Positions 51,804-60,512 of a DNA stretch of 64,000 bases are shown here, in pieces (within the stretch, counting starts at the first letter, position 1; every line of letters begins with the position of its first letter). The stretch comes from Flavivirga eckloniae (lineage in GTDB: Bacteria > Bacteroidota > Bacteroidia > Flavobacteriales > Flavobacteriaceae). The stretch is from the NCBI RefSeq assembly GCF_002886045.1, contig NZ_CP025791.1:4169001-4233000 (forward strand), read 5' to 3'. Both the position numbers and the translations under genes were made by a program. The notes under the pieces were generated by a model. The model was not told where the DNA came from. It did no database searches and saw only the letters and a list, made by a program, of their open reading frames with translations.

Positions 51804-52433
51804 ATGAAAGAAATGATTCAGTTACAGATAGATAGAGGGGAAATGCTTCCTTTAATGGAAGAGTTTTATACGATTCAGGGCGAAGGGTACCATAAGGGAA
51901 CTGCTGCTTATTTTATTCGTATTGGGGGATGTGATGTGGGATGCCATTGGTGCGATGTTAAAGAAAGTTGGAATGCCAATTTACATCCACCTACCGAGAC
52001 TGTTAACATTGTTGAAAATGCCAAAAAGTACAGCGATACTATTGTTGTAACTGGAGGTGAGCCTTTAATGTGGGATATGACAGTTTTAACAGAGCGATTA
52101 AAAGACAAAGGGCTTCAGGTACATATAGAAACATCTGGTGCTTATAAATTTACTGGTACTTGGGATTGGGTTTGTTTATCTCCAAAAAAAACAAAGCTGC
52201 CCACTGAAGAGGCTTATGAGAAGGCTGATGAACTTAAGATGATTATTTATAATAAAGATGATTTTCGTTTTGCTGAAGAGCAAGCGGCTAAAGTTAATAA
52301 AGACTGCATTTTGTATTTACAACCGGAATGGAGTAAGCGAGATAAGGTAGTGCCAGAGATTGTAGATTATGTTATGGCTAATCCTAAATGGAAAGTATCG
52401 CTTCAAACGCATAAGTATTTGAATATTCCTTGA
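51804..52433 (+). CDS. queE: 7-carboxy-7-deazaguanine synthase
   Basis: A radical-SAM enzyme of 209 aa that makes the deazaguanine ring for queuosine. The N-terminal substrate segment [20 protein letters not shown] is followed by the 4Fe-4S motif [10 protein letters not shown] (Cys-x3-Cys-x2-Cys, about residues 40-47), and [11 protein letters not shown] is the SAM-binding GGE region. The chosen start gives the usual length; a 37-codon extension exists but falls upstream of a promoter box. Other queuosine genes are not nearby. Confidence 0.93.
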
Positions 52434-52445
52434 GTTTTTTAGTGT

Positions 52446-52549
<104 letters not shown>

Positions 52550-52576
52550 GTTCTGTTTGGTTGAATGATAAAAATA

Positions 52577-52616
52577 AAAATGTTCCTAATAGTTTTATAC
52601 TAAATAGGAACATTTT
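52577..52616. terminator. bidirectional terminator between convergent genes
   Basis: The perfect arms AAAATGTTCCTA and TAGGAACATTTT surround a 16-nt loop between queE and the DUF2911 gene. A- and T-runs on both sides fit termination in both directions. Confidence 0.75.
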
Positions 52617-52624
52617 AGTTTTGC

Positions 52625-52708
52625 CTAGCTTCTAGCTTCTAGCTTCTAGCTTCTAGCTTCTAGCTTCTAGCTTCTAGCTTCTAGCTTCTAGCTTCTAGCT
52701 TCTAGCTT
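52625..52708. repeat. heptanucleotide array CTAGCTT, 12 copies
   Basis: Twelve perfect 7-bp units. The array ends one base before the stop codon of the minus-strand gene at 52710, the same placement as the array at 31855. Confidence 0.95.
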
Positions 52709-52709
52709 A

Positions 52710-53252
52710 TTACTTTGTAAAAGGTACTGCAACTCTCGTTGTTCCCCATCCTAAATGCATGTTTATGTTACCATCTCCTTCGGCAAAAGCAATAGAGAAT
52801 GCGTCTAAAGGTTCTCCAGATGTTACAGGTACAGATAAACGTGCCACATCGTTACCTTCTTTATAGAAATAAGATCCCCAAACGTTTAAGTCTTTACTAA
52901 TAATTGCTGTCCATTCTTTATCTCCCGGAATAGCATAAAATGTATAAGTCCCTGCTTTTACAGAGGTCTTTCCTAATTTCATATCTGTATATAAAGTTAG
53001 TTCAGCAGCTTCGTTAGCTCCTAGTCTCCAAACTTTACCATTTGGTGCTAAAGTAGCCATGTCTCTTCCTTTAAGTTGAGGTCTACTATAAACTATTTTA
53101 ATAAGTTTATTGGCGTCTTTGTAGCTTGTAGGAAATGCAGCGGCATCCATCGGGCTCTTATCTAATTTTGAGAATTTTTGAGCATTCACATTGGCAGATA
53201 ATAGCATAATAAATGCAAAAGCAATTGCTGAGAAAAATGTTGATTTTTTCAT
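52710..53252 (-). CDS. DUF2911-family exported protein
   Basis: A 180-residue protein with a signal peptide (MKKSTFFSAIAFAFIMLLSA to NAQ, about 25). DUF2911 features are IVYSRPQLKGRDM, WRLGANEAAELTLYTD, and AGTYTFYAIPGDKEWTAII. The family is frequent in Bacteroidota and uncharacterised; a beta-sandwich periplasmic fold is likely. It stands alone. Its stop codon touches a heptanucleotide array. Confidence 0.9.
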   Translation of the reverse strand: MKKSTFFSAIAFAFIMLLSANVNAQKFSKLDKSPMDAAAFPTSYKDANKLIKIVYSRPQLKGRDMATLAPNGKVWRLGANEAAELTLYTDMKLGKTSVKAGTYTFYAIPGDKEWTAIISKDLNVWGSYFYKEGNDVARLSVPVTSGEPLDAFSIAFAEGDGNINMHLGWGTTRVAVPFTK

Positions 53253-53367
53253 AATGAGTTTTTACGTTTTAAGATTAGAATTTTTTAAAGATAAATGTAA
53301 ATCCTGTTAAGATTCTTATAAAAGTCGTTTGCCGATGTTAAAGTTTACATTTTGGAGCATAAAAAAA

Positions 53368-53497
53368 GAAGGTGTCTAAAAAGTTCTTGAATTGTCATTT
53401 TGAGCGCAGTCGAAAAATCTCAACACTTTAATAAACAGATGTTTAATTTTATGAGATTCTTCACTATGTTCTGAATGACACTTTTTAGATACCCTCT
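53368..53497. repeat. 130-nt long inverted repeat
   Basis: AAAGAAGGTGTCTAAAAAG (53366-53384) pairs with CTTTTTAGATACCCTCTTT at the far end (17 of 19). Inside, a TTGTCATTTTGAGCGCAGTC segment and a GTTCTGAATGACA segment also face each other. This sequence type is an interspersed spacer repeat that I recall from many flavobacterial genomes. It sits downstream of the gatB::aspS gene and may end that transcript. Confidence 0.75.
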
Positions 53498-53522
53498 TTG
53501 TAAGGTTTTATAGTGCGAAAAA

Positions 53523-56500
53523 TTACTTTTTCATTATTTTCACGTTCATTTCTTCTACCTTTTTATCCGATAATAAAGAAGGTGCTCCGAATAATAAATC
53601 TTCACTGGTTCCTGTTTTTGGGAAAGCCATGACTTCTCGAATGGATGCTTTTTTCTCCAAGATCATCATTAGTCTGTCTACACCCCATGCAATACCTCCA
53701 TGAGGCGGCGCGCCATAATGGAAGGATTCGTACATGGTGCCAACGCTTTTAAGCATTTCTTCTTTGTTGTATCCCATGTTCTTATAAGTGGCTTCTAATA
53801 TTTCGGGCTTATGGGCACGAACCGAACCGCCTCCTATTTCGTAACCATTTAGAATAAGATCGTATTGTTGGGCAATAATGTTTCCCATTTCATCGTCGTT
53901 ACCATTCATATGTTTTTCAATATCATAAATGGCAGGCATGGAGAAAGGGTTGTGAGTAAACGTCCAGCGTCCTTCATCTGTTTTTTCAAACATAGGGAAG
54001 TCCACCACCCAGGCAGGTCTTAGCTCCTTAGGGTTGATTAAGCGCAACATACTTCCCAGCTCTTGACGAACTGCATCCAGGGCTTTATTGGCCGTTGCAT
54101 AATCTGCGGCAGAGAAAAATACAATATCGCCTATTTGAGCATCTGTAGCTTTAATAATACCAGTAGCAATATCTTCGCCTAAAAACTTGATAATTGGCGA
54201 TTGTAAATCGTTCTCGTTAACAATAATATATGCTAAACCGCCTAAGCCGTTTTGCTGAGCAATAGCAGTTAACTTTTCTATTTGTCCTTTAGATAAACGT
54301 TTGTTTCCTTGTTCTTGAGCTGATACTTTGATGCATTTTACAATACCGCCTTCTTCAATAGGTTTGCTGAATACCTGGAAGGTTGTATCTTTTACAATAT
54401 CTGTTATGTCTTGTAGTTTTAAACCAAAACGTAAATCGGGTCTGTCGCAACCGTAATTATCCATCGCTTCTTTATAGGTAAGTACTTCAAACGGATGTAA
54501 AATCCATTTTTTACCGTAAATTTTCTTAACGATGTCGTTAAACATGTTTGTGTTCAAGTCTATAATTTGTTGCATACTGGCATAGGCCATTTCGATATCC
54601 AATTGTGTGAATTCCGGCTGACGATCGCCTCGGGAATCTTCATCCCTAAAACAACGGGCAATTTGGAAGTACTTTTCGTAACCACTTACCATAAGCATTT
54701 GTTTAAATTGCTGAGGTGCTTGTGGTAAGGTGTAAAATGCACCTGCTTGTTTACGGGAAGGTACTATAAACTCTCTTGCACCTTCGTCTGTTCCTGCACT
54801 TAAAATAGGCGTTTCAATTTCAAGGAAATTTTGCTCGTCTAAAATATCGCGCATCATTTTAATTACCTTATGTCGATTAACGATAACCCTACGAACATCA
54901 TCATTTCTATGATCTAAGTACTTGTGTTTAAAACGAACATTCTCGTTGGTTTTCGTGGCTCTTTTAATTTCGAAAGGTAATGTTCTGGACAGGTTTAAAA
55001 TTTCTAAGGAAGCCGTTTCCATTTCTATTTCACCTGTACGTAAAGCTGCATTAAAATCATCATCATTACGTTTAACAATGGTTCCAGTAACCGTTATAAC
55101 CGATTCGGGTTTTAATTTTACAAGCTCGTCTAAGTTAGGGAACGATTCTCTACTTAGTCGTACTTGGAAAACTTCGTTGCTGGAGTCTCGTAAATCAATA
55201 AAAATAAGCTCTCCATGATCTCGAACACTCGATACCCAGCCCGAAAAAGTAACATCCTCGGAGATATTAGCTTCAGAGATATCCGAAATTAAATGCGTTC
55301 TGTATTCGTCTTTTATAACGATAGGAATTTCTGGTAAAACCTCTTCTTGTATTTTTGTAGTTGGTTGCCCATTGTTGGTTGCTGGTTGTTGACTGCTGGT
55401 TGTTGGCTGCTCTGTTTTTGCTGATGCAGAGCTTTGCAACTGATTAAGAATCTCTTCTCGAATTACTTTTCCGGAAGCACCTTTACCAATAATGGCAATG
55501 ACCTTACCTACTAAAATACCAGCTTTTCCTTGGTTACCAGCTTTGATATCGTTTGCAACAGCTTCATTCTCTGAAATTACTTTTGCAATGGCATCCTCAA
55601 TTTGAGATTTAGAGATTGTATTGTCTTCAAAATACTTGTTGTAATTGAAATCCCTGTCTTTTAGATAAGACGTTATGGCATTTTGAACTAATACGGATGT
55701 TATTTTCTCATCCTTGAAAAGTTGGAAAATTTCAATAAGGTGTTCAATTCTGTGTATATCTGCATACTCGTCTGCACCAATATTATTCACTAACGTTTTT
55801 GCAACAAACGATGGGTCGTTAAGCGCTTTGTTTATTGTCATAAACGTTTTTGAGCGTAAGGAATCTGCTGTAAAAAATTTGGCATCCTGTGGTAGCACGC
55901 CGCCTTTAATCAAGATTGATTCTACGGCATAGGGCAGGGTACTGGTATCTACCTGAATAGAATCGACTACTTCTTTAATAGAAACAAAAGGTAAATCGGG
56001 TTCTGATATAAAACGATAATCGGCCTCGAACTCCTTTTTACGCATCGTTTTGGTTTGCTTTAATTCGGCATCCCATAAAACGGTGGTTTGTTCTGGTCGA
56101 AACTCCTTGTGTTCGATGTAGTAGTTGAATTGTTTTTCAACTTCTTCTTTTAAAGCTTCTACCATAAACTTAAACGAGTTTAAGTTTTTTATTTCGGTAC
56201 GTGGGTTTAAAACATAACTGTGTTTTTTACGTAATGATACAGAAACGTCCGATTTAAATTCTCCTTTTTCAAGGTTAGCTTCAGATATTTTTAAATTCTG
56301 AACGATACGTTGAATGTACTGCGCATAAATTGAAGCATCTTCAATATGGCGAATACATGGTTCTGTTACAATTTCTATAAGGGGAACACCGGCTTTATTA
56401 AAATCGACCAGCGAAACCTTTTTTTCGTGCATCAATTTAGCAGCATCTTCCTCAATATGCACTTGCGTTAAATTAACGGTGAATTGAGACCCATCGTTTC

Positions 56501-56870
56501 GGTAACAAGATACCTGTCCGTCTGGTATGATGGGGTTGTGAAACTGCGTAATTTGGATGTTCTTTGGGTTATCCGGGTATTCGTAATGTTTTCTGTCCCA
56601 TGAAATCACATCGTTTTCGAAAGATGACTTTACAGCTTTTCCAAAATAAATAGCTTTATTAAGTGCTTCTTTGTTAATGGCAGGTAAAACCCCCATTTGT
56701 CCTGTACAAACAGAGCATATATTTTCGTTTGGTGTTAGTGTTTCCATGTCGCCGTTTGGGCAAGAACAAAACAACTTGGTTTTGGTATTTAATCGTACGT
56801 GGGTTTCTAGTCCGATTACCAATTCTAACTCGTGGGCTTTTAATGCCGCGTCTAATTGTTCCAGTTCCAT
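53523..56870 (-). CDS. gatB-aspS: GatB amidotransferase subunit fused to aspartyl-tRNA synthetase
   Basis: One 1115-residue frame holding two complete enzymes. Residues 1-~477 are GatB: the kinase domain starts ELVIGLETHVRLNTKTKLFC with the Zn-type CSCPNGD...CSVCTGQ cysteines, and the YqeY tail has GNQGKAGILVGKVIAIIGKG. A Pro/Thr/Gln/Asn linker (~478-512) is encoded by 7-bp repeats. Residues ~513-1115 are a bacterial-type AspRS: OB-fold anticodon domain, motif 2 YFQIARCFRDEDSRGDRQPE, GAD insert, and motif 3 GIAWGVDRLMMIL. His552 in the anticodon-domain loop (VRDHGELIF) matches non-discriminating AspRSs; E. coli has Leu. Together these would form Asp-tRNA(Asn) and amidate it. The start overlaps the gatA stop. 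No frameshift seen. Confidence 0.93.
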   Translation of the reverse strand: MELEQLDAALKAHELELVIGLETHVRLNTKTKLFCSCPNGDMETLTPNENICSVCTGQMGVLPAINKEALNKAIYFGKAVKSSFENDVISWDRKHYEYPDNPKNIQITQFHNPIIPDGQVSCYRNDGSQFTVNLTQVHIEEDAAKLMHEKKVSLVDFNKAGVPLIEIVTEPCIRHIEDASIYAQYIQRIVQNLKISEANLEKGEFKSDVSVSLRKKHSYVLNPRTEIKNLNSFKFMVEALKEEVEKQFNYYIEHKEFRPEQTTVLWDAELKQTKTMRKKEFEADYRFISEPDLPFVSIKEVVDSIQVDTSTLPYAVESILIKGGVLPQDAKFFTADSLRSKTFMTINKALNDPSFVAKTLVNNIGADEYADIHRIEHLIEIFQLFKDEKITSVLVQNAITSYLKDRDFNYNKYFEDNTISKSQIEDAIAKVISENEAVANDIKAGNQGKAGILVGKVIAIIGKGASGKVIREEILNQLQSSASAKTEQPTTSSQQPATNNGQPTTKIQEEVLPEIPIVIKDEYRTHLISDISEANISEDVTFSGWVSSVRDHGELIFIDLRDSSNEVFQVRLSRESFPNLDELVKLKPESVITVTGTIVKRNDDDFNAALRTGEIEMETASLEILNLSRTLPFEIKRATKTNENVRFKHKYLDHRNDDVRRVIVNRHKVIKMMRDILDEQNFLEIETPILSAGTDEGAREFIVPSRKQAGAFYTLPQAPQQFKQMLMVSGYEKYFQIARCFRDEDSRGDRQPEFTQLDIEMAYASMQQIIDLNTNMFNDIVKKIYGKKWILHPFEVLTYKEAMDNYGCDRPDLRFGLKLQDITDIVKDTTFQVFSKPIEEGGIVKCIKVSAQEQGNKRLSKGQIEKLTAIAQQNGLGGLAYIIVNENDLQSPIIKFLGEDIATGIIKATDAQIGDIVFFSAADYATANKALDAVRQELGSMLRLINPKELRPAWVVDFPMFEKTDEGRWTFTHNPFSMPAIYDIEKHMNGNDDEMGNIIAQQYDLILNGYEIGGGSVRAHKPEILEATYKNMGYNKEEMLKSVGTMYESFHYGAPPHGGIAWGVDRLMMILEKKASIREVMAFPKTGTSEDLLFGAPSLLSDKKVEEMNVKIMKK
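55360..55415. repeat. eight heptads encoding the GatB-AspRS linker
   Basis: Plus-strand units in strict 7-bp register: GTTGGTT, GCCCATT, GTTGGTT, GCTGGTT, GTTGACT, GCTGGTT, GTTGGCT, GCTCTGT. They lie exactly at the domain junction and encode the Gln/Pro/Thr/Asn linker. Adding or losing one unit would shift the reading frame. Confidence 0.8.
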
Positions 56871-58270
56871 TATATCATGTCTTTTAAGAAGTTAGCAAAC
56901 TTCAAAACGAGTTCGTCATTATTTTTTGCTGCCGTAAGTTGTAAGCCTGTTTCTGTACCTTGAGGAATGGTTAGGGTTGGCAGGTGTCCTAAACTAAAAC
57001 CTACGGTATAGGCATCGGATAAATACATGGCTAAAGGGTCTTTTAAACTATCTCCGATTTTTGGAGGTCTACTAGGTGTAACAGGCGATAGGATGATATC
57101 GACTTCTTCAAAATCTTTTTCAAAATTTTCAGAAATAGCATCTCTTAAAGCGAGACCTTTTAAATAGATTTCATCGGAAAACCCCTGAGATAATACCTGG
57201 TTACCACCAACAATTCTTCGTTTGGTTTCTTCGGAAAATTTCTCTGATCGGGTAATAGCGTACGATTCCTTTAGGTTTTTATCTTCTATACGGTCGCCGT
57301 AATTCGTACCGTCTAAACGCGATAGATTAGAGGCTGTTTCTGCCATAGCTAAAGTATAATAGGTAGAAACCAGAATATCAGATTTAAAGAAATCGAGTTC
57401 TTTTACTTCTATACCTTTTGCTTTTATTTTTTCGATAGTTGCTAAAAAATCGGCTTTTATTTGTGCATCTATGGCTTCGCTTTCAATAAAGTTTTTAAAA
57501 TAGCCAACAGTTTTAATGTTGGATGCATTTAAAATACTGTCTTCTTCTATAGTTTTAGAAGTGTATGTGGTTTGATCCTTTGTGTCTTTACCACTCATGG
57601 TGTTTAAAACAATACGGATATCTTCAACAGATTTTGCCAATGGTCCTACGCAATCTGTAGATGAAGCGTAAGCCATTAAACCATAACGCGAAATACGCCC
57701 GTAGGTTGGTTTTAAACCGTATACGTTATTATAGCCTGCGGGCTGACGTACAGAACCACCGGTATCGCCACCAATAGAAAAAATGGTATAGTCTTTAGCA
57801 ACGTTTACGGCAGATCCGCCACTGGAACCTCCTCCAACTAATTCTGGGTTTACAGCGTTTTTTACGGCACCAAAAATGGTGTTTTCGCTCGATGATCCAT
57901 GGCCAAAACTATCGCAGTTTTCCTTAACAATTGGTATAGCGCCCGCATCCAATAATTTTTGAATGGCAGTAGCTGTATATGCCGATTTGTAGTTTTTGAG
58001 TAAGTCTGAGCTTGCTGTTGTATACGTGCCTTGTAGCATGTATACGTCTTTAATTCCAAACGGAATTCCTTCTAGTAAGCCAATGGTCTCGCCATTTGCA
58101 ATTTTGGCATCTACCAGGGCTGCTCGTTCTAAAGCCAAGTCTGTTAATAAAGAGTTTACGGTGTTATGAGTATTCTCTTTAAGTAAGCTTAGTTTTTCTT
58201 GTACCAAGTCTACACAAGATATTTTCTTATCCAGCAGTTGCTTATGGATGTGTTGTATTTGAGATTCCAT
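56870..58270 (-). CDS. gatA: GatA amidotransferase glutaminase subunit
   Basis: The amidase-signature subunit of GatCAB, 466 aa, which releases ammonia from glutamine for GatB. The Ser-Ser-Lys triad is present: Lys74 (GIPFGIKDVYM), cis-Ser149 (GGGSSGGSAVN) and nucleophile Ser173 (GGDTGGSVRQPAGY). It lies between gatC-like (2-nt gap) and gatB::aspS (1-nt overlap), so the three genes form one operon under the leader at 58622-58694. Acts on misacylated tRNA together with the fused GatB-AspRS protein. Confidence 0.95.
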   Translation of the reverse strand: MESQIQHIHKQLLDKKISCVDLVQEKLSLLKENTHNTVNSLLTDLALERAALVDAKIANGETIGLLEGIPFGIKDVYMLQGTYTTASSDLLKNYKSAYTATAIQKLLDAGAIPIVKENCDSFGHGSSSENTIFGAVKNAVNPELVGGGSSGGSAVNVAKDYTIFSIGGDTGGSVRQPAGYNNVYGLKPTYGRISRYGLMAYASSTDCVGPLAKSVEDIRIVLNTMSGKDTKDQTTYTSKTIEEDSILNASNIKTVGYFKNFIESEAIDAQIKADFLATIEKIKAKGIEVKELDFFKSDILVSTYYTLAMAETASNLSRLDGTNYGDRIEDKNLKESYAITRSEKFSEETKRRIVGGNQVLSQGFSDEIYLKGLALRDAISENFEKDFEEVDIILSPVTPSRPPKIGDSLKDPLAMYLSDAYTVGFSLGHLPTLTIPQGTETGLQLTAAKNNDELVLKFANFLKDMI

Positions 58271-58272
58271 AT

Positions 58273-58542
58273 CTATTCTTCAATAACTTTAGAAACTACT
58301 AAATAGCCATTTTTCTCTTTTGGGAAATTCTCTTTTATGATTTGTTTTTCTAAAGCAGAGCTTTCAATCACTTCATCATCCCTCAAATTATTTATAGATA
58401 CGCAATTATTATGATTATGATCAAAGGGATTATTATTTGTTGCTTGTGCATTTTTAATTACATCAAATAACTTATTTACAGCCTCGGAAGGTTGTGCGCC
58501 TTTAATACTCGACAATACGTCGACTGTCATAATTTTACTCAT
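58273..58542 (-). CDS. gatC: GatC-like subunit with atypical N-terminus
   Basis: An 89-residue protein whose last ~40 residues (NNLRDDEVIESSALEKQIIK and NGYLVVSKVIEE) match the GatC belt that wraps GatA and GatB. The usual N-terminal helices with the LARLELS-type motif are missing. In their place are an unrelated MSKIMTVDVLSSIKGAQPSE start and an Asn-rich stretch (TNNNPFDHNHNN). Position directly before gatA supports the role. A canonical gatC elsewhere in the genome cannot be excluded. Asn codons here could also slow translation when Asn-tRNA is short; that is inference. Confidence 0.78.
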   Translation of the reverse strand: MSKIMTVDVLSSIKGAQPSEAVNKLFDVIKNAQATNNNPFDHNHNNCVSINNLRDDEVIESSALEKQIIKENFPKEKNGYLVVSKVIEE

Positions 58543-58563
58543 GGTTTCATTTATTAGATTAAT

Positions 58564-58592
58564 AAAAAAGCCTTCCGAATTCGGAAGGCTTT
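58564..58592 (-). terminator. attenuator terminator of the gat-aspS operon
   Basis: A perfect palindrome GCCTTCCGAATTCGGAAGGC (58570-58589) is followed on the minus strand by six T. It lies between the leader peptide and gatC. The upstream GGAAGG (58612-58617, minus strand) can pair with its CCTTCC arm and would form the competing antiterminator. Confidence 0.85.
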
Positions 58593-58621
58593 ACATATTT
58601 TTAAACAATAACCTTCCAGTC

Positions 58622-58669
58622 CTAAAAATTAGGATTATTGAAATTATTATTGTTATTATTTCTTGTCAT
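58622..58669 (-). CDS. Asn-rich leader peptide of the gat-aspS operon
   Basis: A 15-codon frame, MTRNNNNNNFNNPNF then TAG, with nine Asn codons. It begins 18-20 nt after a -7 box and is followed by mutually exclusive hairpins. Translation would stall when Asn-tRNA(Asn) is scarce. The stalled ribosome leaves GGAAGG free to pair with the terminator's first arm, so the operon is read. With ample Asn-tRNA the ribosome reaches the stop, covers that segment, and the terminator forms. A longer frame from 58720 (MMFSKFIL...) ends at the same stop but starts upstream of the -7 box. An Asn run this dense just before a terminator and an amidotransferase operon is unlikely by chance. Confidence 0.85.
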   Translation of the reverse strand: MTRNNNNNNFNNPNF

Positions 58670-58686
58670 AGTACTCGTTCTATTGT

Positions 58687-58694
58687 CAAAGATA
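58687..58694 (-). promoter_or_regulatory. -7 box of the gat-aspS leader
   Basis: TATCTTTG on the minus strand fits TAnnTTTG. It places the transcript start about 10 nt before the leader-peptide ATG. No clear -33 TTTG. Confidence 0.6.
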
Positions 58695-58744
58695 GATAGA
58701 ATAAATTTACTAAACATCATTTTTTACTCGTGGAATATTTTTAT

Positions 58745-59294
58745 TGTCATATTATTAAAAAACTTAAAATTAATTTATTAGTTCTACAATAATTATTCGT
58801 TTGGGCTTAATTCTTTACAGAATATTTTACAGCAAAAAGTAAGGAAAAATGATTTTATTCCTGTTCTGTCTATTAAATTGTAACCATATGAAACAGTAAA
58901 GGTTTCCATGGGCTAATATTTGTTAAACTGAAAAGTTTAAATATAAATAAGCTTTAGAGTAACCGTTAATATTAACTATGTTATTTACACTTTTGATGCT
59001 TGTTGACTGAAAATTTAATGAAAACAATCATTTTTGTATAGCTCCGTTTAATGATTATTGGATAGTTTTGTTATCTATTTCTTAATAGAGTTGTCCCGGT
59101 CTTTCTAAATAAAGTTTTAATGTTATAAAAGTAATATTAAGATAAAGGTTACACGCATATGATAGTGTGAAGTGATTGTTTACAAATTAATAATACTTTT
59201 TTGATAAAATCGGTATGAGATTTGTTGGGGTAATATCTTAATTAATGAAACAGACAATTAAATAGCCTCAAATTAGAACTTAGGACGATAATCT
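58745..59294. other. AT-rich spacer upstream of the AraC-type gene
   Basis: A 550-nt spacer between the divergent gat operon and the regulator at 59295. No gene, repeat or hairpin that I can support, and no GTC-T(n)-GGG boxes like those downstream. Confidence 0.4.
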
Positions 59295-60368
59295 ATGCTA
59301 ACCAAAAGAATAAATAACTGGTTTACTCACTTTAAAAAATATTTTTTTACATATAAAGATGGCTTTTTTGAATTGAATTTTTTGATGAATTCACCAAAAG
59401 TAATGATTGAGAGTGTGAGGAGAATGCCGTTTATGAATTGTGATACAAAAAACCAAATCATAAAAAACGATAATCTTTTTTTTGAAGCAGACATGCATTA
59501 TCAGGAGTTGGAAGAAGGTCTTTGGGTTATGTATGCTAAGGCATTTTATAAAACGAATGTATGTTTTAAAATGATATACGATGAGTATATACCTATTGAA
59601 TATTATTCATTAAGCTATAATGTTTTAGAAAATAAGCTATTTAAAAAGAGACCAACTAATAGTGATATTAATTATACGAATGAAACATGGAGTTTGGTAA
59701 AACCCGCAACAACTTATGTGGATAGTCAATTAAAAGGAACAAAGGCAGAACATCTAACTATTTATTTTACAGAAAAGTGGTTAACTCGTAATATTTTTAG
59801 CGATTTAAGATTTAATAATAATAGTTTTAAGGATTTTTTTAATTCTAAAGACCAAACGCATATTGTATGGTCTGGAGATACCAATTTTGTTAATAATGAG
59901 TTTCATGATATTGCAAAAACTATTCTAGAAAAAGGGTATCAGGGTGTAGCCAATGTATTTGCTTTAAAGTTTAAAGTGTATAAATGTATTCAGGATTTGT
60001 TTTTAGAAGAAACTAAAAATATAAAGCTAAACCCCAATTTATCTAATGTAGCCCTTTTAAAGCAATTAAAAATTGAAAACTTTTTAAAGGAAAATCTGGA
60101 GGGCAAATTTGTTGGAATTGAGTATTTGTGTGGCAAATTTAAAATATCTCCAACAAAACTTAAGCATGATTTTAAGGAGGCTTATGGTGTGTCGTTGTTG
60201 CAATATTTTCAAAAAGCCCAAATGCGAAAAGCTAAAGATTTGATAGAAAATAAAGGTCATAAAATTAACGACATAGCTTTAAGATTTGGTTATGAAAAAG
60301 CTAGTAATTTTTCTAATGTGTTTTTAAAACACAATGGTAAATTGCCATCATTTTACAAGAAAAAATAG
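59295..60368 (+). CDS. AraC-family regulator next to four repeated cassettes
   Basis: A 357-residue protein. The C-terminal ~100 residues are an AraC HTH (YLCGKFKISPTKLKHDFKEA, YFQKAQMRKAKDLI, DIALRFGYEKASNFSNVFLK). The N-terminal ~250 residues are an unrecognised effector domain, not the cupin type of the regulator at 6561. Followed by four promoter-like cassettes bearing paired GTC-T(n)-GGG boxes, with the spacing expected of an AraC-class activator, and by no ordinary structural gene until gyrB. Inference: it controls these cassettes. Confidence 0.85.
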   Translation: MLTKRINNWFTHFKKYFFTYKDGFFELNFLMNSPKVMIESVRRMPFMNCDTKNQIIKNDNLFFEADMHYQELEEGLWVMYAKAFYKTNVCFKMIYDEYIPIEYYSLSYNVLENKLFKKRPTNSDINYTNETWSLVKPATTYVDSQLKGTKAEHLTIYFTEKWLTRNIFSDLRFNNNSFKDFFNSKDQTHIVWSGDTNFVNNEFHDIAKTILEKGYQGVANVFALKFKVYKCIQDLFLEETKNIKLNPNLSNVALLKQLKIENFLKENLEGKFVGIEYLCGKFKISPTKLKHDFKEAYGVSLLQYFQKAQMRKAKDLIENKGHKINDIALRFGYEKASNFSNVFLKHNGKLPSFYKKK

Positions 60369-60512
60369 CGAAAAAACGTTTTAAGTTAAGGTAGATCTCT
60401 TTTCGATTTTAATCGAATTTACCAAACTATAAGCAGTCTTTTGTTTAGTAGCTGCCATGCTTTACAAGCAGTTGCATAGTTTTCTTCACTTTGTGAAAAA
60501 TAATTAAAGAGA

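Follow-up and report, generated by a model that had tools for sequence, protein, structure and literature searches.

Attenuators of the trp, his and phe type share a general layout, in which a leader open reading frame (ORF) rich in the regulatory codon is placed between the promoter and the first gene and is followed by an antiterminator and a terminator that have one arm in common. T-box elements, on the other hand, bind transfer RNA (tRNA) directly. Control of the latter type acts on tRNA-dependent amidation for asparagine in Clostridium acetobutylicum, which has extra genes for aspartyl-tRNA synthetase (AspRS) and for the amidotransferase GatCAB, according to the portion of a survey considered here (PMC4206432). 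The same portion lists 18 genera, Bacteroidetes included, that have AsnRS, GlnRS and GatCAB but no asparagine synthetase; a second AspRS is reported for 5 of these 18, all Deinococcus-Thermus, and Deinococcus radiodurans and Thermus thermophilus combine AsnRS, GlnRS, GatCAB and a second AspRS with the absence of AsnA and AsnB. The survey also mentions that Bdellovibrio genes were tried for rescue of an E. coli strain auxotrophic for asparagine. For Flavobacterium psychrophilum, the part of a study considered here (PMC9723704) reports strong clues that operons for amino acid biosynthesis are preceded by leader peptide attenuators. Here we analyse a stretch of 64,000 nucleotides (nt) from Flavivirga eckloniae (contig NZ_CP025791.1, positions 4,169,001 to 4,233,000), referred to as the window, in which the operon gatC-gatA-gatB::aspS is preceded by a short asparagine (Asn)-rich leader. 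Judged from its sequence, this element is very probably an attenuator of transcription, mediated by the ribosome, that responds to how much Asn-tRNA(Asn) is available and governs an operon making asparagine on tRNA. This marine bacterium appears to make asparagine directly on tRNA, with enzymes that would be induced by ribosome stalling in a run of Asn codons.

The elements of such a device follow one another on the minus strand in the order promoter box, leader ORF, stop-codon hairpin, GGAAGG segment, intrinsic terminator, gatC start at 58542, gatA and the gene of a GatB::AspRS fusion (Table 1), and the TAnnTTTG box, the ORF with its nine Asn codons, GGAAGG and the terminator with six T, all named in an initial annotation of this DNA, can be read in the sequence. 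The short ORF with its clustered regulatory codons has the promoter on one side and the first gene on the other, the intrinsic terminator lies ahead of the first structural gene, a mutually exclusive antiterminator using the first arm of the terminator is predicted, and, as judged by gene content only, the regulatory codon agrees with the product of the operon. Within positions 58200-59200 two terminator-like sites were found, which are one palindrome counted on both strands, versus a mean of 0.1 in shuffled sequence, and the RNA from 58690 to 58564 folds better than all 200 of its shuffles (z = -6.2). The leader is the sole ATG-started ORF of 10-25 codons with at least seven Asn codons in the window, and 20 first-order Markov shuffles of the window contained none. 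The next long ORF upstream encodes an AraC-type regulator (59295-60368, plus strand) and is divergent, so that the terminator serves no upstream gene.

To what extent is this arrangement shared by relatives? Leaders were looked for in 101 loci (L031-L130 and the F. eckloniae window; the named loci are the best 80 of 306 stretches that encode a relative), of which three lacking gatC or gatA (L084, L093 and L094) and ten duplicates were dropped, leaving 88 distinct upstream regions of Flavobacteriaceae. In 58 of them, from genera including Flavivirga, Algibacter, Polaribacter, Seonamhaeicola, Confluentibacter, Aestuariibaculum and Mariniflexile, a leader and a terminator precede gatC. Counted back from Phe, Asn occupies codon -4 in 57, codon -5 in 55 and codon -6 in 53 of the 58 leaders, while AAT and AAC interchange; an Arg codon is found at -2 in nine leaders, several of them from Polaribacter. 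This retention of the amino acid through codon changes supports the earlier view of an attenuation layout tuned to Asn. A TAnnTTTG box lies at most 35 nt ahead of the leader ATG in 57 of the 58 leaders, and this motif is given as the sigma-A consensus of F. psychrophilum in the part of PMC9723704 considered.

We suggest that the leader would be translated by a ribosome while RNA polymerase transcribes it. With ample Asn-tRNA the ribosome would get to the TAG stop codon and its footprint would mask GGAAGG, whereupon the CCTTCC arm would pair with the distal GGAAGG and transcription would stop. With scarce Asn-tRNA the ribosome would stall within the Asn run and leave GGAAGG exposed, which would then pair with CCTTCC, block the terminator and allow gatC-gatA-gatB::aspS to be transcribed. 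The fusion would first load tRNA(Asn) with Asp through its AspRS part, the GatCAB attached to it would convert the product to Asn-tRNA(Asn) by amidation, and the tRNA route would substitute for the absent AsnB. Structure predictions for the 58 leaders are consistent with both states. With a stalled ribosome masked on the third Asn codon, CCTTCC is predicted to pair with the stop-to-C segment at a mean probability of 0.99, and above 0.5 in 58/58, as compared to a mean of 0.38 when the spacer is shuffled; once the ribosome is placed on the stop codon instead, terminator pairing is predicted in all 58, at a mean of 1.00. Antiterminator pairing was counted over the whole stop-to-C segment; another count gave the antiterminator above 0.5 in 54/58, probably owing to a mis-set register of GGAAGG where the motif occurs twice. 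The pairing of GGAAGG with the CCTTCC arm proposed in the initial annotation is borne out by prediction. A further proposal, that the CCTAA/TTAGG hairpin hides GGAAGG, had to be rejected, as this hairpin stops short of GGAAGG and does not overlap it. GGAAGG could be covered instead by a ribosome at the stop codon, within whose footprint, of the size we assume, it would presumably lie, or by pairing of the Asn run with GGAAGGTTATTG.

Table 1. Features of the gatC-gatA-gatB::aspS locus (positions in the window)
Feature	Position	Strand	Description	Basis
Promoter -7 box, TAnnTTTG	58687..58694	-	TATCTTTG	read from sequence
Leader ORF	58622..58669	-	MTRNNNNNNFNNPNF; 15 codons, nine Asn; ATG 58669, TAG 58624-58622	sequence
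Segment A	58646..58654	-	AACAATAAT, Asn codons; able to pair with GTTATTGTT at 58612-58604	
Stop-codon hairpin, CCTAA/TTAGG	58621..58633	-	spans the stop codon; possible pause hairpin (putative role)	
Segment B, GGAAGG	58612..58617	-	antiterminator arm; 4 nt past the stop codon	
Intrinsic terminator	58567..58592	-	AAAGCCTTCCGAATTCGGAAGGCTTT; 11-pair stem; six T ending at 58564	terminator scan
gatC	58273..58542	-		Pfam PF02686, 23.9 bits (cut-off 23); NCBIfam gatC, 27 bits, below cut-off 47.1
gatA	56870..58270	-		best family TIGR00132, 432.7 bits, below cut-off 481.1
gatB::aspS fusion	53523..56870	-	1115 amino acids	GatB NF004012 (residues 14-479) and AspRS NF001750 (522-1114), both over cut-off

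GatA carries the motifs GGSSGGS and DTGGS[VI]RQP in 88/88 loci and GIKD in 85/88. GatB and AspRS are joined in one polypeptide by a Ser/Thr/Gln-rich linker, and 23 of the 149 genomes of Flavobacteriaceae encode this fusion at full length, these being exactly the genomes with GatB_N; in other genomes of the class sample no GatB frame as long as that of the fusion was found among the matches listed. F. eckloniae also encodes an ordinary AspRS (G000:C1:2466897-2468645). The AspRS part of the fusion reads VRDHG in 90/90 fusions. RDHG is likewise found in the PDB chains 5w25 and 4rmf, which are named Asp/Asn ligases, and in 4o2d, and 1c0a has RDLG; we take the former three to be mycobacterial and the last to be from E. 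coli. The ordinary AspRS of eight family genomes (L024 and L141 being one gene) has RDKG in seven, that of F. eckloniae included, and RDLG in one. The RDHG-type position, which is His31 in Pseudomonas, presumably sets AspRS specificity. Motif 3 (GGIAWG[VIL]DRL) is present in 87/87 fusions of at least 1100 amino acids, and 88/88 fusions have QAPQQFKQ as opposed to QSPQTFKQ in the eight ordinary enzymes. One tRNA(Asn) was seen in the loci of the 30 tRNA matches, out of 38, that were read, and it has the pair U1-A72. The fused AspRS may be non-discriminating and charge tRNA(Asn).

What then is the operon for? AsnRS was found over cut-off in 148/149 genomes, all carriers of the operon among them, and GlnRS in 24/24 carriers, so that GatCAB is not needed for Gln-tRNA. 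The 24th carrier, G124, was initially counted among the genomes without the operon and was found by the covariance model of the leader (E 6.5e-17; E-values of this model are rough); its contig breaks off near the beginning of gatA, downstream of leader and gatC. The housekeeping enzyme AsnB (NF006949) exceeds its cut-off in 108/149 genomes and in 0/23 carriers, and AsnA is present in 10/149 genomes, none of them a carrier. With G124, which has no AsnA or AsnB over cut-off either, the count of genomes with one or the other is 0/24 carriers versus 114/125 others; Fisher's tests (p 3e-16 and 1e-19) take no account of relatedness, and we do not rest the argument on them. Among 50 further carriers drawn from the 80 named loci, no AsnB exceeded the cut-off. 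The F. eckloniae genome (one contig, 99.99% complete) gave no AsnA match, a best NF006949 match under cut-off (E 4.4e-12) and a best PF00733 match of E 9.2e-4. Of the features of tRNA-dependent asparagine synthesis, it has GatCAB and a further AspRS, a lack of AsnA and AsnB, and a tRNA(Asn) of the kind described above. Since carriers have no AsnB or AsnA over cut-off yet possess AsnRS and GlnRS, the tRNA-dependent synthesis of asparagine by this operon has most likely taken the place of AsnB, and what the leader would read is Asn-tRNA. The initial annotation had assigned the operon to the supply of Asn-tRNA rather than Gln-tRNA, and the gene content supports this assignment. Eleven non-carriers are without AsnA or AsnB over cut-off, one of which (G079) has an AsnB match just below cut-off in a short frame. 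Four genomes at least 93% complete (G098, G116, G092 and G041) have neither GatB nor AsnA/AsnB over cut-off and are possibly asparagine auxotrophs or use another route; G098 has longer AsnB-like proteins.

Several observations weigh against an Asn-tRNA attenuator controlling a substitute for AsnB. At a second position presumed to set specificity, the fused AspRS has Asp, which is neither the Gly nor the Lys expected. The leader is absent in 30 of the 88 regions and hence is not obligatory. The antiterminator helix B:C (GGAAGGTT/AGCCTTCC) is paired in 98.1% of cells, is nearly invariant and shows no covariation, because it hardly varies, and the A:B helix, paired in 96.7% of cells, has no pair changed on both sides. 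In the terminator (99.5% of cells paired) two pairs are changed on both sides, each in one sequence. In the stop hairpin (94.8% of cells paired, innermost pair open in 15/58) three of the five pairs never vary, one varies one-sidedly and, in a single sequence, one has both of its bases changed; support by covariation for the leader structures is weak. In naked RNA ending before the distal arm, the antiterminator is predicted to form in 44/58, so that an untranslated leader may default to read-through. Carriers, moreover, are clustered: in a single-gene tree (AsnRS; 100 of the 149 genomes, short search, 9/97 inner branches well supported) the operon changes state five times, and with just two independent pairs on well supported branches there are too few for a test. 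Finally, a longer AsnB-like protein (PF00733, E <=3e-58, best-match frames 572-640 amino acids) is found in 9/23 carriers and also in G124 (E 4.4e-74, frame of 604 amino acids), and 23/50 further carriers have NF006949 matches of E <1e-30 under cut-off.

Judged from sequence, these longer AsnB-like proteins could make free asparagine, and the operon might then be an accessory route used beside them, for instance under stress, and not the sole route to asparagine. However, no PF00733 match surpasses E 5e-5 in 14/23 carriers, one of which is F. eckloniae, and no NF006949 match surpasses E 7e-13 in 27/50 further ones. The longer kind is also seen together with true AsnB in genomes that lack the operon, for example G004, G080 and G082. 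We regard an accessory role as unlikely on balance, and tRNA-dependent synthesis in place of AsnB as the preferred reading.

But could the leader sense something other than Asn-tRNA? It might be a general sensor of translation or growth, in which any slowing of the ribosome gives read-through and the Asn run reflects AT-rich sequence for pairing with GGAAGGTTATTGTT. AAT at -1, +1 and +2 and CCT indeed hardly change at the nucleotide level (57 or 58 of 58 leaders), which means that a constraint at the RNA level is present, and the extent of A:B pairing given above fits this too. Yet Asn is retained at -4 to -6 across AAT/AAC changes, the codons agree with the likely product of the operon, and the actual order of the Asn codons hardly improves A:B pairing over permuted order, with mean duplex energies of -9.32 versus -9.17 kcal/mol (actual order better in 35/58 leaders, equal in 1 and worse in 22). 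As permutation shifts the mean by just 0.15 kcal/mol, strong selection on A:B pairing was rejected, and a general sensor seems to us quite improbable. That an ordinary intergenic terminator happens to lie beside a chance ORF, as might be thought from the 70/149 family genomes with covariance-model matches at E <=0.01 and from the strongest match not lying at gatC (G114, E 7.2e-6; the sole such match inspected), which is a plain terminator without leader ORF, is hardly credible for an ORF that has no like in the window or its shuffles, is kept in 58/88 regions and belongs to a leader whose matches at E <=6.4e-14, in 14/149 genomes, all stand before gatC.

The Asn leader is not the only control region found before this operon. 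Regions without it include all four Lutibacter loci, Tamlana and Flavobacterium alvei, as well as L125, which has just 158 nt upstream and was counted as leaderless. In 27 of the 30 leaderless operons (L112, L116, L117 and 24 others) a promoter-like motif, approximately TTT[CT]GTA[AG]TTT, is located 27-45 nt before gatC. On a tree of the fusion proteins (88 rows) the leader state changes at least 14 times, 10 of these changes being forced by well supported branches, and the two control regions have thus been swapped or lost repeatedly. Individual loci deviate further. In L092 (8038-8149) the leader ATG and gatC are 291 nt apart, as some 165 nt extra separate terminator and gene; in L097, L105 and L124 a similar stretch with TATGTTTCAG, perhaps a short dispersed repeat, separates terminator and gatC; and L109 (Polaribacter sp. 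Hel1_85) has neither leader nor alternative motif, its gatC being preceded by another hairpin, followed in the sequence AAGCTCGATCGAGCTTTTTTTT by eight T.

Among the 149 genomes, none that lacks the operon gave a leader-model match at E <=6.4e-14, G124 being a carrier. For this reason, and because 8 of the 108 AsnB genomes had no terminator by the rule of the script and no Asn-rich ORF within 350 nt upstream of asnB, the possibility that the same leader precedes asnB in non-carriers was rejected. In the class, 1/395 genomes, F. eckloniae itself, matched at E <=1e-5, a weak negative given strict filters, nine candidates scored per genome and one fusion carrier in the sample; the leader therefore seems confined to Flavobacteriaceae as far as sampled. 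Taken together, we lean slightly towards a wider reading, namely a closed loop without a free metabolite, in which the covalent GatB-AspRS would have taken over from asparagine synthetase in a large group of Flavobacteriaceae and would make asparagine only as Asn-tRNA(Asn), its synthesis being induced by ribosomes stalled for that very product and its leader and leaderless promoters having been exchanged repeatedly.

Both leader-peptide attenuation and the tRNA-dependent pathway have been described before. A search of the literature, covering few subscription journals, brought up neither the Asn leader nor the GatB-AspRS fusion, nor the two combined. In agreement with the initial annotation, which knew of no such case, Asn-codon attenuation of gatCAB was not described among the matches listed, and in the main text of a survey of premature terminators (PMC2965389) the terms asparagin, gatC, Bacteroid, Flavobacteri and asnS do not occur. 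Rfam gave no match over threshold in 52000-60500 and two matches up to E 1, neither of them a T-box; Phe_leader (RF01859) scored 39.1 bits (E 0.00077), under its gathering cut-off of 55 bits. If correct, our reading would add an amino acid leader for asparagine and a ribosome-read control of tRNA-dependent amidation, and it would explain the supply of asparagine in many flavobacteria that have no AsnB or AsnA. It would also place a second AspRS, fused to an amidotransferase, in a group that the portion of PMC4206432 considered does not name for an extra AspRS.

How, then, does the F. eckloniae locus compare with the systems described before? With the trp, his and phe attenuators, Phe_leader of Rfam included, it shares the general layout; it differs from them in that its regulatory codon is Asn and that its operon would make an aminoacyl-tRNA. 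As a probable leader peptide attenuator before a flavobacterial operon it resembles the case of F. psychrophilum, for which the part of PMC9723704 considered names pheA and hisG among the conserved 5' elements and mentions neither gatC nor Asn. As far as the portion of PMC4206432 goes, the RNA-level control of tRNA-dependent amidation for asparagine proposed for F. eckloniae, and its extra AspRS, have counterparts in C. acetobutylicum, but in F. eckloniae it is a translated leader that would read Asn codons in place of a T-box. The set of AsnRS, GlnRS, GatCAB and a second AspRS without AsnA or AsnB is the same as that given there for Deinococcus and Thermus, whose second AspRS, however, is of the archaeal type, whereas that of F. 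eckloniae is of the bacterial type and fused to GatB.
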